Positions 33,950 through 63,840 of a DNA stretch of 64,000 bases are shown piece by piece. Position 1 is the first letter of the stretch. Each line of letters starts with the position of its first letter. The notes below the pieces were generated by a model, which was given only the letters and a program-made list of their open reading frames with translations, was not told where the DNA came from and made no database searches. The position numbers and the translations under genes were made by a program. Origin of the DNA: Armatimonadota bacterium (GTDB lineage: Bacteria > Armatimonadota > Fimbriimonadia > Fimbriimonadales > Fimbriimonadaceae); NCBI GenBank assembly GCA_018268395.1, contig JAFDWQ010000003.1, forward strand, positions 345,238 to 409,237. Direction: 5' to 3'.

Positions 33950-35200
33950 ATGAGCGAAGTCAACGTCTTAGAAATGGCCCGCAAGCAGCTTGCGTCGGCC
34001 GCGAAGTATCTCGACCTCGACGAGGGCCTTCACGCCGTCCTCGCCCAGCCCAAAAGGCAGGTCGTCGTCAACTTTCCCGTCGTGATGGACAACGGTTCCG
34101 TGGAGTGCTTCCAGGGCTATCGCGTCCAACACAACTCGAGCCGCGGCCCGACGAAAGGCGGTCTCCGCTACCACCCCGAAGTCGACCTGGACGAAGCCAC
34201 CGCGCTCGCCATGTGGATGACGTGGAAGTGCGCGGTCGTCAACATCCCCTATGGAGGCGCGAAGGGCGGCGTCAAGGTCAACACGAAGAAGGTCAGTAAG
34301 CGCGAGCTCGAGAAGCTGACCCGCCGCTTCATCTCCGAGCTCAACATCGTCGTCGGCGAACGCAGCGACATCCCCGCCCCGGACGTGGGTACGAACCCGC
34401 AGGTCATGGCCTGGATCATGGACACGCTGTCGATGCAGGTCGGATACACGGCGCCGGGCGTCGTCACGGGCAAACCGATCGAGCTGGGCGGCTCCGAGGG
34501 CCGCGTCGAGGCCACGGGCCGCGGCGTTGTCGTCAGCGCGCACGAAGCTTGCAAAGTCCTGAACATGGATTTCGCGAGCAGCAAGATCGTCGTCCAAGGC
34601 TTCGGGAACGTCGGTTCGGTCGCGGCCGAACTCAGCGAAGAGGCCGGCGCCAAAGTCATCGCGGTCAGTGACGCGACGGGTGCGATCTATAACGAGAACG
34701 GCCTGCCCATCCGCGAGCTCTACGAGCGGTACAGCGGCATCGACGGCGGCATCCGGAACTACAAGGAGTGCGACCAGATCACGAACGCCGAGCTGCTCGC
34801 CCTCAAGTGCGACATCTTGATGCCGAACGCGATCCAGAGCCAGATCACGGGCGAGAACGCGGGCGACGTCAAGGCCCGGCTCATCGTCGAGGGCGCGAAC
34901 GGCCCCACGACTCCGGAGGCGGACGACATCCTGTCCGACAAAGGCGTCATGGTCGTGCCGGACATCCTTGCCAACGCGGGCGGCGTCGTCACGAGCTACT
35001 TCGAATGGGTGCAAGACCTGCAGAACTTCTTCTGGGAAGAAGAGCAGGTCAACGACAGGCTCTCGCGCATCATGCGCAGCGCCTTCGCCGCCGTCCATGC
35101 GACTCAGCTCAAGCACAAGACGGACATGCGCACCGCCGCCATGATCATCGCCGTCGACCGCGTGGCCCACGCTACGACCGTCCGCGGCATCTTCCCGTAA
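33950..35200 (+). CDS. gdhA: Glu/Leu/Phe/Val dehydrogenase (glutamate dehydrogenase)
   Basis: A 416-residue hexameric amino-acid dehydrogenase with GAAAGG before its ATG. Substrate site: GGLRYHPEVDLDEATALAMW and PYGGAKGGVKV with catalytic Lys105, then ERSDIPAPDVGTN. The NAD-binding domain is GFGNVGSVAAELSEEAGAKV. LMPNAIQSQIT, EGANGPTTPEAD and NAGGVVTSYFEWVQDLQ complete the family pattern. The length fits the NAD(P)-dependent GDH class; it converts glutamate to 2-oxoglutarate and ammonia. A 12-bp hairpin follows the stop. Confidence 0.93.
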   Translation: MSEVNVLEMARKQLASAAKYLDLDEGLHAVLAQPKRQVVVNFPVVMDNGSVECFQGYRVQHNSSRGPTKGGLRYHPEVDLDEATALAMWMTWKCAVVNIPYGGAKGGVKVNTKKVSKRELEKLTRRFISELNIVVGERSDIPAPDVGTNPQVMAWIMDTLSMQVGYTAPGVVTGKPIELGGSEGRVEATGRGVVVSAHEACKVLNMDFASSKIVVQGFGNVGSVAAELSEEAGAKVIAVSDATGAIYNENGLPIRELYERYSGIDGGIRNYKECDQITNAELLALKCDILMPNAIQSQITGENAGDVKARLIVEGANGPTTPEADDILSDKGVMVVPDILANAGGVVTSYFEWVQDLQNFFWEEEQVNDRLSRIMRSAFAAVHATQLKHKTDMRTAAMIIAVDRVAHATTVRGIFP

Positions 35201-35211
35201 GCCGGTCTCAA

Positions 35212-35240
35212 AGAGAAGGCCGCTCGGCGCGGCCTTCTCT
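35212..35240 (+). terminator. Hairpin downstream of gdhA
   Basis: AGAGAAGGCCGC and GCGGCCTTCTCT form a perfect 12-bp stem with a 5-base loop (TCGGC), 12 bases after the gdhA stop. No T-tract follows on the plus strand. It may terminate by an unusual mechanism or protect the 3' end. The symmetrical stem could also serve the convergent gene ending at 35465. Confidence 0.6.
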
Positions 35241-35319
35241 GGGCCCGGTCAGGTTCCTGCCGTCAGACGCCTCAGACCGTGCTCTTTCTCCGTGCTCAAG
35301 AGCTTGCAGCGCCCTGTTT

Positions 35320-35372
35320 CCGTATCACGACCGTAATACGTCCGTAATACGTCCGTATCACGCGTGATACGG
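35320..35372. repeat. Four 11-bp tandem repeats ending in a 20-bp palindrome
   Basis: Units CCGTATCACGA (35320-35330), CCGTAATACGT (35331-35341), CCGTAATACGT (35342-35352) and CCGTATCACG (35353-35362) repeat exactly every 11 bases, about one helical turn. The last is followed by its inverse CGTGATACGG, giving a perfect palindrome at 35353-35372. The CGTAATACG core is itself symmetric around its central A. The array sits between two convergent genes, where no promoter is expected. Confidence 0.85.
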
Positions 35373-35464
35373 ACGGACGACGCCGAGGCCCCGGTCGGAG
35401 TGTGGACGCAGGTCGGTATCCCGGACCACACGCGGGAGACGACGGTCGGTCTTTCCACGCGCGA

Positions 35465-36643
35465 CTATCCTGGCGACTGGGGGTTCCTTGTCCAGACGGT
35501 GAACTGGAACTGCGTGTCGGTCAAAGCACCGGCCGAGTCCCAGAACCGGAGGACGAAGCCGCCGTTGCCCGGGTTCACGACTCCGAACGTGCGGGGCGAC
35601 GAGACGACGGGCGTGACTGTGACGACGTGGCTGCTGTTGCTGTACGTCTCGCCGTCGACCGTCACCGTATAGAAGCCCGTGGAGTCCTTGACGACCGAGA
35701 AGTTGCCCGTCCCGCCCGCAATGGTGCCGGCCGCGTTGACCGTCCCATAAGCCATCGGGACGGCGACGCTGGGTGAGTTCAAGGCATAAGTCCGATAATA
35801 GAACCCCGTGTTGTGCACCGCGCCGGCCGACGTTCCCAGTGTGACCGTCTGTCCGTTCCCGAAGAACCGGCCCGCGCCCGCAGCGCTGTTGCCCGCTCGG
35901 CCGACGACACCGAAGCCGTTCGGCCGCCCGGACTGGCCGTACACGCCGTGGCCGTTTTCGACCACTAGGAAGGTGTCCGAAACCCCGATCACACCGCTCC
36001 CGTCTGTGCCTGCCCACCCTTTGACCGCGCTACCGGTCTGATTGAAGACATGGAAGGCGTCGCTGGTACCGTTGAAGCTCTTCAGGAACGGAAGCGTCAC
36101 GCCGTCCGCAAAGGGCACCCACTTCGACCCGTCGAAGTGGAGGACGTTGCCGTCTTCCGGAGGCAAGTTCGAGACCGTGGACGATTGAAGCTTGACGACT
36201 CTCGCCGCGCTGAGAGGGCCGGACAGGTCTCCTCCGACGGACAACCTGGCGTCAGGCACGGTGCCGCTTGCCAGCGCCGAGGCGTTCAGACCCGTCAAGA
36301 GATTGCCGGAGCCTGTGAAGGAGTTGGAGGCGTTGTTGAAGTTGTTGACGCCGCTCCAATTGTTGGTCGCGCCGACCTGCCCGTAGGCGGACGAAGCCTG
36401 GCCGCCGAGTTTGGCGGCGTCGACCCCAGTGACGGCCGAGCCGTCTCCGGACAGGTGCCCTGCGAGCACGGTGCCCGAGACGTTCACATGACCGGCTTGC
36501 GGCGTGCCGGGCGTGGTCGGTTGCAACCGCACCATGAACTCCTTCGCGCTTTGGGCGACGGCGGGGCCGGAGTGGACGAGTCCCCAAGCCGCGAGTCCAC
36601 CTGTGAAACCAAGGACGACCGTCCTGACGTCGTTTGCTCTCAT
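35465..36643 (-). CDS. Secreted repeat protein, LQPTTPGT family, paralogue A
   Basis: A 392-residue protein, one of three related proteins in this window (also 40391-41473 and 48088-49182). The N-terminal membrane or signal segment (VVLGFTGGLAAWGLVHSGPAVAQ) is followed by the shared signature VRLQPTTPGTPQAGHVNVSG. The middle consists of Gly/Asn/Ser-rich beta-forming segments (GHGVYGQSGRPNGFGVVGRA, GAGRFFGNGQTVTLG). The C-terminal part starts with VPMAYGTVNAAGTIAGGTGNF. The pattern resembles trimeric fibre or beta-helix proteins such as tail-fibre-like adhesins. A TACCAT hexamer lies eight bases before the ATG. I recognise no named family. Confidence 0.68.
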   Translation of the reverse strand: MRANDVRTVVLGFTGGLAAWGLVHSGPAVAQSAKEFMVRLQPTTPGTPQAGHVNVSGTVLAGHLSGDGSAVTGVDAAKLGGQASSAYGQVGATNNWSGVNNFNNASNSFTGSGNLLTGLNASALASGTVPDARLSVGGDLSGPLSAARVVKLQSSTVSNLPPEDGNVLHFDGSKWVPFADGVTLPFLKSFNGTSDAFHVFNQTGSAVKGWAGTDGSGVIGVSDTFLVVENGHGVYGQSGRPNGFGVVGRAGNSAAGAGRFFGNGQTVTLGTSAGAVHNTGFYYRTYALNSPSVAVPMAYGTVNAAGTIAGGTGNFSVVKDSTGFYTVTVDGETYSNSSHVVTVTPVVSSPRTFGVVNPGNGGFVLRFWDSAGALTDTQFQFTVWTRNPQSPG

Positions 36644-61526: not shown

Positions 61527-63500
61527 CTACGACCCGTTCGCCCGGCGGAACTCCTCGATCGCCTTCTTCGCCGCCTCGCCCTTCTCGGGACGGAACCGGC
61601 CGAGCTCGTAGGTCGTCACGCCCGTCGTCGCACCGTCCGCCCACGTCACCTGGATCGTATAGGCGACGCCGTCGCGAAGACCGATCGACGCGTCCTTCTC
61701 GTCGAACATCGGGGTGCGGTTGCCGGGGCGGGCGGCGTCGTCAATCATGGTGTGCGTCGAACCTTGGAACTTGTCGGTTCGCGTCCTCATCAGCGTCTTG
61801 CGCGCCTTGACCGTGATCTGCCGCACGTCCGGCAGCGGCCGCTCGTCGTGGGGATAGCCGCCCTTGTCGTCGGGGAACATGTTCCCGACGCTCTTCAGGA
61901 GCTTGATCTGGCGCGGAGTGATCCGGGAGAACGTGACGGTCTCGCCACGGGCAAGACGGCCGAGTTCGGCGGGCGACAGGAGCCCGACCATCTCTGCCGT
62001 CGAATCCTCGTACATAGAGATGCCGTGCGGGGTCGACGCTCCTAGCGCTTCATAGGGCGAGAGCAGCGCATACCTCACCGTTTGGTTCACGTCCATGCCG
62101 CGCGTCTTGGCGCAGTACAGCGCCCAATCCGTATAAGGGACAAAGCCTTTCTCTTCGACGACCCGCATGAGCTGGGCCAGCGGCGCCCGGTCCAGGGCGA
62201 TTCGCCGGGAGAGGTCGGGCAAGGCCGGGCGGACCCAAAGGACGCCGTCCTTCTCCTCCATCGTCAGGATCGAACGGACCGACATCGCCTTCCACAGCGA
62301 GCCCCAAGGGATCTTTCCGTCGACCGTCGCCGCCTGGACGCTGGAGAAGAACTCGTCGGGCACGACCGCGACCATTTCGTCGTCGAGCGCGTCGGCCAGC
62401 CCCGTCAGCGCATCGGTGACGTGGAACGAGAGCGGGTCGTGGGTCGACGGGTCGGCGAAGAGCGGGCGGTCTTCGTCCAGGAACCCGTTCTTATCGAAAA
62501 AGGGAACGACGAACTGGGGAGACGTCCCCAGCATCTGCGGAAGATAACGGACGAACCGCACCGAGTCGGGCCGGAGCTTGACGGCCGGCTTCTGGTCGGT
62601 CAACCGCTTGGTGAACCCGACGTGCGGATAGCGCGAGAGCCATTCGCCGACGTCGGAGAACGCCCACGAGACCTGTCGGCCCTGGGGGTCGTTGACGATC
62701 AGGTACGGGGCGACGCGCGTCAACCAGTCCCGCACCGAGAGCTTGAACTCGAGCGGCTGCCGGGCCGGATCGGAGAGGTCGAAGATGTCCTTGAAAAGCG
62801 GGTCTTTGCGGTCGGACTCCTTCAGTCGGTTCGCGACGACGCCTAGGAACTCCTCCTGCTTGGCCAGATAGTCGGTGATCGCCTTGCGGTCGGATTCGGA
62901 GAAGGCCCCCGGGCCGAGCGGGCCGGCGGAGGTCCACTCGATGGAGTCACGGGGCGCGAGCGCGGTCAAGCGGTCGGCGTCGACGTTGGCGAAGAGCCTC
63001 TTCAGCAGCCACTTGAGCGGCGAGGCGAGGCGCGGGCCGTCGAGCGACATGCCGCGTCCGTCCTCTGGCGGGCGGCGGATCTTGTCGACGGCTTTCACGA
63101 GGTCGTCGACCTTGGCGAGGTTCCACGGGTCTTGCCCGTTCTTCGTCCGCATCGCTTCGAGCTGCTCTTGGAGCGAGGCGGTCTGGCGGTCGCGGTCGAG
63201 CTTGACGAGCGCTTGGTCTTGGGCGGCGGTGCGGGCGAGCGTGAAACCGTCCCTGTCCCGGGTCCATTGGGCGTCGGTCGCCTGCGCGATCTTGAGGAGG
63301 ACGTCGGCCGCGGGCTGCTTCTTGAGGTGGACGACGACGGTGAGGTCGCGGACGGTCCCCGTGGCCCGGAGCGTCGTCCCCGTCTTGTCCCCGATCCGCT
63401 TGAGGAGGTTTTCGAGCCGCATGGCGGGCCAATCGGCGGTGACCGGGGTCGCAGGGAGCTTGTCCTGCAGGAGGGCCAGGGCGAGGGCGAGCGACGTCAT
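61527..63500 (-). CDS. Large secreted protein of unknown function
   Basis: A 657-residue protein with a signal peptide (MTSLALALALLQDKLP). Residues 20-85 look like a secretin/STN-type short domain (RLENLLKRIGDKTGTTLRAT, VVVHLKKQPAADVLLKIAQA), common at the N-terminus of armatimonadete and planctomycete exported proteins. The remainder is mixed, with several Trp/Pro and Arg/Asp segments (LIVNDPQGRQVSWAFSDVGE, VPDEFFSSVQAATVDGK). No catalytic motif is recognised. Leader of about 20 bases with AAAAGG and a TACGAT hexamer upstream. Confidence 0.62.
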   Translation of the reverse strand: MTSLALALALLQDKLPATPVTADWPAMRLENLLKRIGDKTGTTLRATGTVRDLTVVVHLKKQPAADVLLKIAQATDAQWTRDRDGFTLARTAAQDQALVKLDRDRQTASLQEQLEAMRTKNGQDPWNLAKVDDLVKAVDKIRRPPEDGRGMSLDGPRLASPLKWLLKRLFANVDADRLTALAPRDSIEWTSAGPLGPGAFSESDRKAITDYLAKQEEFLGVVANRLKESDRKDPLFKDIFDLSDPARQPLEFKLSVRDWLTRVAPYLIVNDPQGRQVSWAFSDVGEWLSRYPHVGFTKRLTDQKPAVKLRPDSVRFVRYLPQMLGTSPQFVVPFFDKNGFLDEDRPLFADPSTHDPLSFHVTDALTGLADALDDEMVAVVPDEFFSSVQAATVDGKIPWGSLWKAMSVRSILTMEEKDGVLWVRPALPDLSRRIALDRAPLAQLMRVVEEKGFVPYTDWALYCAKTRGMDVNQTVRYALLSPYEALGASTPHGISMYEDSTAEMVGLLSPAELGRLARGETVTFSRITPRQIKLLKSVGNMFPDDKGGYPHDERPLPDVRQITVKARKTLMRTRTDKFQGSTHTMIDDAARPGNRTPMFDEKDASIGLRDGVAYTIQVTWADGATTGVTTYELGRFRPEKGEAAKKAIEEFRRANGS

Positions 63501-63588
63501 GAACTTGCCTTTTCCGTGCCCATCGTATCACGGGTCGGGGCGGTTTGGTGGCGGTCCTTCGTCGCCGGCGCACGTTCGGGCACGGTTC
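63501..63588. other. Short promoter-bearing interval before the secreted-protein gene
   Basis: Contains TACGAT on the minus strand and AAAAGG close to ATG 63500. Otherwise no feature is seen. The tandem repeat array begins at its far end. Confidence 0.45.
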
Positions 63589-63840
63589 CTGACAAGAAAG
63601 GGCCACTTTATGGCGCAAAAGGGCCGTTTCATGGCGCAAATGGGCCACTCCATGACAAGAAAGGGCCGTTTCATGGCGCAAATGGGCCACTCCATGACAA
63701 GAAAGGGCCACTCCATGGCGCAAAAGGGCCATTTCATGGCGCAAAAGGGCCGTTTCATGGCGCAAAAGGGCCACTCCATGACAAGAAAGGGCCATTTCAT
63801 GGCGCAAAAGGGCCACTTCATGACAAGAAAGGGCCCGTTC
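63589..63840. repeat. Tandem array of twelve 21-bp units
   Basis: Twelve contiguous 21-base units without spacers. Two variants alternate irregularly: one begins ATGGCGCAAAAGGGCC (or CAAATGGGCC) and one begins ATGACAAGAAAGGGCC; each ends in five bases like GTTTC, ACTCC, ATTTC or ACTTC. All share an A-rich run and a GGGCC core. Both strands stay open across the array since the period is a multiple of three, but its translations are only simple repeats. It lies upstream of the minus-strand gene starting at 63500. Confidence 0.93.

Follow-up and report, generated by a model that had tools for sequence, protein, structure and literature searches.

A phased array of 11-bp repeats between convergent genes of an Armatimonadota genome belongs to a lineage-wide class often found upstream of one undescribed gene family

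Introduction

What would a phased, palindrome-ended array of short repeats be doing between the ends of two convergent genes? The question is raised by a locus, here called A1, in a genome of the Fimbriimonadaceae, and concerns one window (the whole stretch of 64,000 nucleotides that was analyzed). A sequence-only reading had described four units of exactly 11 bp ending in a perfect 20-bp palindrome, and had suggested that the phasing serves cooperative protein binding. Operators were not expected between two gene ends, and it had named a chromosome-organization site or a sink for a regulator as possibilities.

A1 is an array of four direct units and one inverted unit

The features of the locus were as follows, with the A1 units taken from the sequence and from the alignment of three copies described below.

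33950..35200, + strand: gdhA (glutamate dehydrogenase; Pfam PF00208/PF02812, NCBIfam), ending upstream of A1
35212..35240, + strand: hairpin with a 12-bp stem, after gdhA and separate from A1
35319..35329, + strand: A1 direct unit 1, TCCGTATCACG
35330..35340, + strand: A1 direct unit 2, ACCGTAATACG
35341..35351, + strand: A1 direct unit 3, TCCGTAATACG
35352..35362, + strand: A1 direct unit 4, TCCGTATCACG, left half of the palindrome
35363..35373, - strand: A1 inverted unit, CGTGATACGGA, right half of the palindrome
35375..35382, + strand: tail (GGA, G and CG) common to all three copies, from invariant columns 59-66 of the ungapped alignment
35465..36643, - strand: convergent 392-aa ORF without a family match

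Across 35319-35373, A1 reads TCCGTATCACG ACCGTAATACG TCCGTAATACG TCCGTATCACG CGTGATACGGA. The repeat of exact 11-bp units was borne out, with unit spacings of exactly 11 and 11 and a self-match at shift 11 of 27/33 (binomial expectation 2.7e-4 over the whole window and 54 periods). The best self-match in order-2 Markov windows (n = 20, all periods) was 25/33, below that of A1. The perfect 20-bp palindrome at 35353-35372 was also confirmed; it is the sole one in the window, and a further 800,000 bases from elsewhere in the genome contained three. The four 11-bp units stood as described, but a better description of the architecture counts a fifth unit, inverted, after the four direct ones; unit 4 and the inverted unit form the palindrome. 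The convergent setting after the gdhA hairpin was as reported, with the gdhA stop at 35200 (+) facing the stop of the 392-aa ORF (-). Two tandem stretches stronger than A1 lie near 63.6-63.7 kb of the window, with periods of 42 and 21, divisible by three; the surrounding 63269-63750 gave strong tandem self-matches at 21, 30 and 42, again multiples of three.

No promoter-like site was found in 34900-36000 around A1. The pattern of an intrinsic terminator (a G+C-rich hairpin followed by a T run) had its sole match in the same interval at 35468, outside A1, and Rfam gave no match at E ≤ 1 for 35150-35550. Integron attC sites have RYYYAAC/GTTRRRY boxes and go with a tyrosine integrase; no such boxes were seen by eye in A1, and this candidate was set aside.

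Two sister copies lie elsewhere in the genome

A pattern search of the whole 3.72-Mb genome found two further phased arrays, giving three copies in total, so that the units do not occur at A1 alone.

Contig C10, 166.65 kb: A2, from the pattern search of the own genome
Contig C10, 52.05 kb: A3, from the same search

The three copies aligned without gaps over 75 columns, 43 of them invariant, as four direct units, an inverted unit and a short tail. Their likeness spans about 70 bp, and both the flanks and the intergenic settings are unrelated. A profile built from them recovered the three copies in the own genome at E < 1e-19, its remaining matches below 0.01 there being the opposite strands of the same sites, and in 84 other genomes of the family, including three of the same genus, its best match reached only E 0.017. 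A first pattern search of relatives had matched 51 of 61 genomes, which outside the own genome was about control level and was put down to chance. Exact palindrome scans found 20 stretches in GTDB contigs and 12 in viral contigs, none with tandem units; blastn gave one short match to plasmids (E 0.1) and no match to phages.

About 30 bp separate the end of A3 from the gene downstream of it, which belongs to an undescribed protein family; no gene or remnant of this linked family was found near A1 or A2. Because A1 has no such gene, it reads as a stray copy of the gene-linked element of A3. The surprise at an operator-like site beyond a gene end is thus answered in part: a sister copy does stand directly before a gene, and A1 lacks such a gene, so that it may be a stray or decoy site. 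A1 and A2 both read as stray copies, which may serve as additional targets or as decoys, or may have arisen as copies of a repeat that is mobile. A role in chromosome organization was not supported, with only three copies across 3.72 Mb, placed in intergenic settings that are unrelated.

Arrays with a period of 11 form a lineage-wide class

A tandem self-match scan covered 2,064,000 bases in seven genomes, all from the order, with six belonging to the family and one to another family; roughly one quarter of the own genome entered the counts, and smaller portions of the rest. Period 11 was found at 13 places, period 10 at 6 and period 22 at 8. Other periods not divisible by three gave 0-3 places each (mean 1.05 over 21 periods, period 22 being excluded as a multiple of 11), and the Poisson chance of 13 at that mean is 1e-10. 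The control, 285,013 bases from five unrelated genomes, gave one place at period 11, a perfect simple repeat. Three of the seven genomes, sampled at 100 kb each (G020, G034 and G041), gave zero period-11 arrays. When the threshold was lowered to about 2.4 units, the own-genome count rose from 6 to 7 only.

By our gene calls, which are crude ORF picks, the arrays lie intergenically, in convergent, divergent and codirectional gaps. The unit word differs for nearly every array, and a reverse-complement unit lay at most 30 bp away at p ≤ 0.05 in 8 of the 13 arrays, counted one per family. In a loose autocorrelation of intergenic DNA from the own genome, 11 led the periods not divisible by three weakly (z 3.2), with leftover coding DNA dominating the signal; with the same crude gene calling it came second to 10 in G017 and fell outside the top ten in G013. 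No described class of such arrays was recognized among the papers listed in literature searches.

Many arrays stand just ahead of genes from a single family

The genes beside A3 and beside two further arrays, L179b and L196, are mutually homologous. A profile from these three neighbors found 14 distinct members in all loci examined, and an 11-sequence profile found 14 again. That A3 and many other arrays are placed directly upstream of genes of one undescribed family of about 220 aa is a new finding. An upstream array (period 11, self-match of at least 19/26, located between 450 bp ahead of the ORF start and 150 bp inside the ORF) was present for 8 of the 14 members, against a background of 30 of 2,959 ORF starts (1%, a set that contains spurious ORFs) and of 92 among 20,000 random windows. 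The three seeds had been picked for their arrays, and the stretch with the member L210b had been fetched for its array; without these four, an array was found upstream of 4/10 members (P = 2e-6).

Among the six members outside the 8/14, L210a and L216 have 13-14-bp palindromes upstream without a phased run. Another of the six, L152m of the own genome, forms an ortholog-like pair with L217 of G013 (134/221 residues identical). Their upstream array is conserved across genera, with 64/89 identical columns, compared with 53/112 further upstream and 24/41 nearer the start outside it. Conservation between species was therefore seen for this array only, the A copies being absent from same-genus genomes. 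None of the four KKAA-tailed members has a period-11 array (8/10 vs 0/4, Fisher's exact test p = 0.015).

Pfam gave no convincing match for the linked family, the best being E 0.0013 for one member, to T2SSC; the best E values were 0.38 in PHROGs and 0.18 among PDB sequences, and no transposase match was found in any of the three at the thresholds used. No relative of the members tried was found in phage, plasmid or viral collections. A possible relation of the family to DUF6266 was set aside, as no such Pfam match appeared (5 members at E ≤ 5; 11 members at E ≤ 1). Ten array sites that lack a linked gene were searched out to 3 kb, and the sole family match at E < 1 was the already known L179b neighbor, near L179a.

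Two members are long for the family, at 388 aa (L196, 4722-5885, -) and 337 aa (L179, 10635-11645, +) vs about 220; their extra middle parts resemble in-frame insertions, that of L196 including repeated HRNPTT words. Also at L179 (8166-10352, -; about 88.2-90.4 kb of the own contig C1), divergent from the L179b array, is a gene for a 729-aa protein with 11 tandem repeats of about 45 aa (FGETKTLxEWxxDPRC...). It matches PHROG 3377 (HNH endonuclease) and unknown PHROGs, and has a modular DNA-binding look.

Cores are kept, linkers change and units appear to be copied

Variable positions cluster into linkers. Across the 13 arrays, one per family, variable columns were adjacent above chance (26 vs 18.8, p = 0.005). 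L179b, sought in four same-genus genomes, has a sister copy in the own genome alone; it again has four units, and its core bases had changed at 0/32 positions and its linker bases at 3/9 (p = 0.008), the two copies having most linker letters in common too. The G017 array adjoining gdhA also has a second copy, and array families number only 2-3 copies each. From copy to copy among A1, A2 and A3, the second and third units vary in concert, a pattern that resembles copying of whole units and not selection on individual sites; copying inside the array keeps a repeat-element reading in play. The direct run faces the gene in either direction (A3 vs L203 and L210b), as for a DNA site.

Other repeat arrays in the lineage

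Thirty groES-groEL loci were surveyed, of which four had no groEL start, one had a false start and G014 had none nearby. In 21 of the 24 readable genomes the groES-groEL gap is ≤ 30 bp. The gaps of G001, G002 and G019 (L277, L279 and L287) are occupied over 142-228 bp by word arrays, both direct and inverted; that of G001 is an 11-bp array of about 20 units, and those of G002 and G019 have GTAAGG/CCTTAC cores with short linkers, not at 11 bp.

Several GGTTCGG word arrays at 8-10-bp spacing were seen at L164 (5058-13297; about 35-43 kb of the own contig C3). A Y1_Tnp (RAYT-like) gene at L161 (16609-17579; about 617 kb of C1) is flanked by pairs of 16-bp palindromes, for example GCGGACTTCAGTCCGC and CCGGGCTTCAGCCCGG. 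Directly after the gdhA stop of G013 (L095, and L226 at 14518) lies a 10-bp GGTTCGGGTT array with inverted copies, and downstream of gdhA in G003 (L093) there are copies of a repeated TTGTCATCCCGACCGAGGAGCGC...GCGGAGGGACC element. The arrays after gdhA in the own genome, in G017 and, at 10-bp spacing, in G013 are suggestive of a hot spot.

Discussion

We observed an array with three copies, a lineage-wide class with a period of 11, a link to one gene family, and one array conserved with its ortholog. The reading that we favor, with confidence just short of even, is that A1 is a gene-less stray copy of an array that sits upstream of the linked family, and that the arrays are sites bound cooperatively by protein on one face of the DNA. 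An array, usually of four 11-bp direct units and often with an inverted unit beside them, would offer one short core per helical turn, on which several monomers of a DNA-binding protein could line up on one DNA face and bind cooperatively. At A3 the bound protein would regulate the adjoining linked-family gene, and A1 and A2 may be extra target or decoy sites for it. Cooperative binding to phased units, as first suggested, is the best-supported mechanism, given the excess of period 11, the clustering into linkers and the kept cores; binding, a binder and regulation are what we infer from these. Against it stand the place of A1 between two gene ends without a promoter-like site in 34900-36000, and its absence from same-genus genomes. 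The groES-groEL gaps, with about 20 units in G001 and with other cores and short linkers in G002 and G019, would also be odd for operators. The concerted change of units 2 and 3 among the A copies and the long palindromes of L216 and L210a, which have no phased run, likewise count against it.

A bolder version, which we think rather unlikely, would provide many of the linked genes with an upstream "address" private to each, in the form of a four-unit helical-turn array whose word is its own, which diversifies together with its paralog and is recognized by that paralog or a partner; stray copies such as A1 would then be additional targets or decoys at other chromosomal sites.

Several known systems resemble these arrays. 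The PHO boxes of the OmpR-type regulator PhoP in Streptomyces have 11-nt direct repeat units and are alike by description, the arrays here differing in location and in the inverted unit. ParR-parC centromeres and plasmid iterons are short tandem direct repeats that are cooperatively bound; unlike them, the arrays are chromosomal, with no partition or replication gene seen beside them. Closer in spacing are the Streptomyces operators of SARP/AfsR-type (BTAD) regulators, which, in the part of the source drawn on here, are direct repeats 11 bp apart bound cooperatively by monomers, with conserved heptamer cores and less conserved 4-bp spacers (PMC5930380). A1 and the lineage arrays have this direct spacing. 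They differ in often having an inverted unit, in a word that varies per array and in lying mainly beside another gene family. There are ten BTAD matches in the own genome, and one of five BTAD genes in the DNA examined has an upstream array (L205, in a relative), so a SARP is a candidate binder, not a finding. The operators of CarH/CarA, MerR-type B12 photoreceptors, are likewise tandem 11-bp repeats, and the excerpt used here gives three to five of them bound on one face by CarH (PMC9304148). However, TnnACA from the CarH core N4-T-N2-ACA-N is absent from both strands of A1, A2 and A3, A1 lacks a promoter-like site, and no carotenoid genes were seen beside the three copies.

The main rival, unlikely in our view though a serious one, is a dispersed REP- or MITE-like repeat, hairpin-capable and without a regulatory role, copied perhaps by the linked gene product or by a RAYT-like transposase. 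REPs and REPINs, in the portions of the sources that we cite, are short intergenic palindromic repeats dispersed in one species (PMC2817692, PMC3733652, PMC3116915), usually at more than 100 copies per genome (PMC2817692). The limited likeness of A1, A2 and A3, about 70 bp between unlike flanks, would suit such an element, as would the linker letters common to both L179b copies, the mixture of gene-linked and gene-less copies in the A family and in G017, the arrays occupying a groES-groEL gap that is otherwise ≤ 30 bp in 21/24 readable genomes, and the four Y1_Tnp genes of the own genome. Yet the arrays are tandem 11-bp units with 2-3 copies per family, three in the case of A1, and one of them is kept with its ortholog across genera. 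Two of the four Y1_Tnp loci were readable: at L161 the palindrome bordering the RAYT-like gene, GCGGACTTCAGTCCGC, differs from that of the arrays, and at L151 no palindrome with arms ≥ 7 bp borders the gene. For the linked protein, the Pfam, PHROGs and PDB searches gave no transposase match at their thresholds.

Growth of a tandem repeat by replication slippage and fold-back copying, with polymerase geometry favoring 11 bp and with no selected function, would account for the paired unit changes within A1, A2 and A3, for the long near-identical runs of G001 and for the word arrays at 7-10-bp spacing in the same lineage. We regard it as improbable in view of the contrast between core and linker, the equal unit number of sister copies and the strong placement upstream of one gene family. 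An RNA element, a hairpin in the 5′ part of a transcript acting in attenuation, stability or translation control, is weak and very improbable. Folding upstream is strong for some members (z = -9.4 for L217, -4.5 for L216 and -4.1 for L210a), and A1 folds with z = -2.7 and -3.8, one per strand. However, z was below -2.4 in only 6/14 upstream regions (A3 -0.9, L210b 0.0, L197 +0.3), the array of A3 itself gave +0.33, A1 had no Rfam match and direct runs point either way relative to the gene. Kept cores with changing linkers, one core per turn and arrays in either direction fit protein binding on one face better than an RNA hairpin.

Cooperative loading of protein by direct repeats at helical-turn spacing is already known. 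What is unusual here is the scale and diversity, with one bacterial family using one geometry with many words, mostly in connection with a single gene family that is without a name in Pfam or PHROGs. Should every array respond to a protein of its own, the lineage would hold a natural series of matched protein-DNA specificities; should the arrays be a repeat element instead, it would be one of low copy number whose fixed number of units is unusual. The stray copies, A1 among them, make both alternatives testable.
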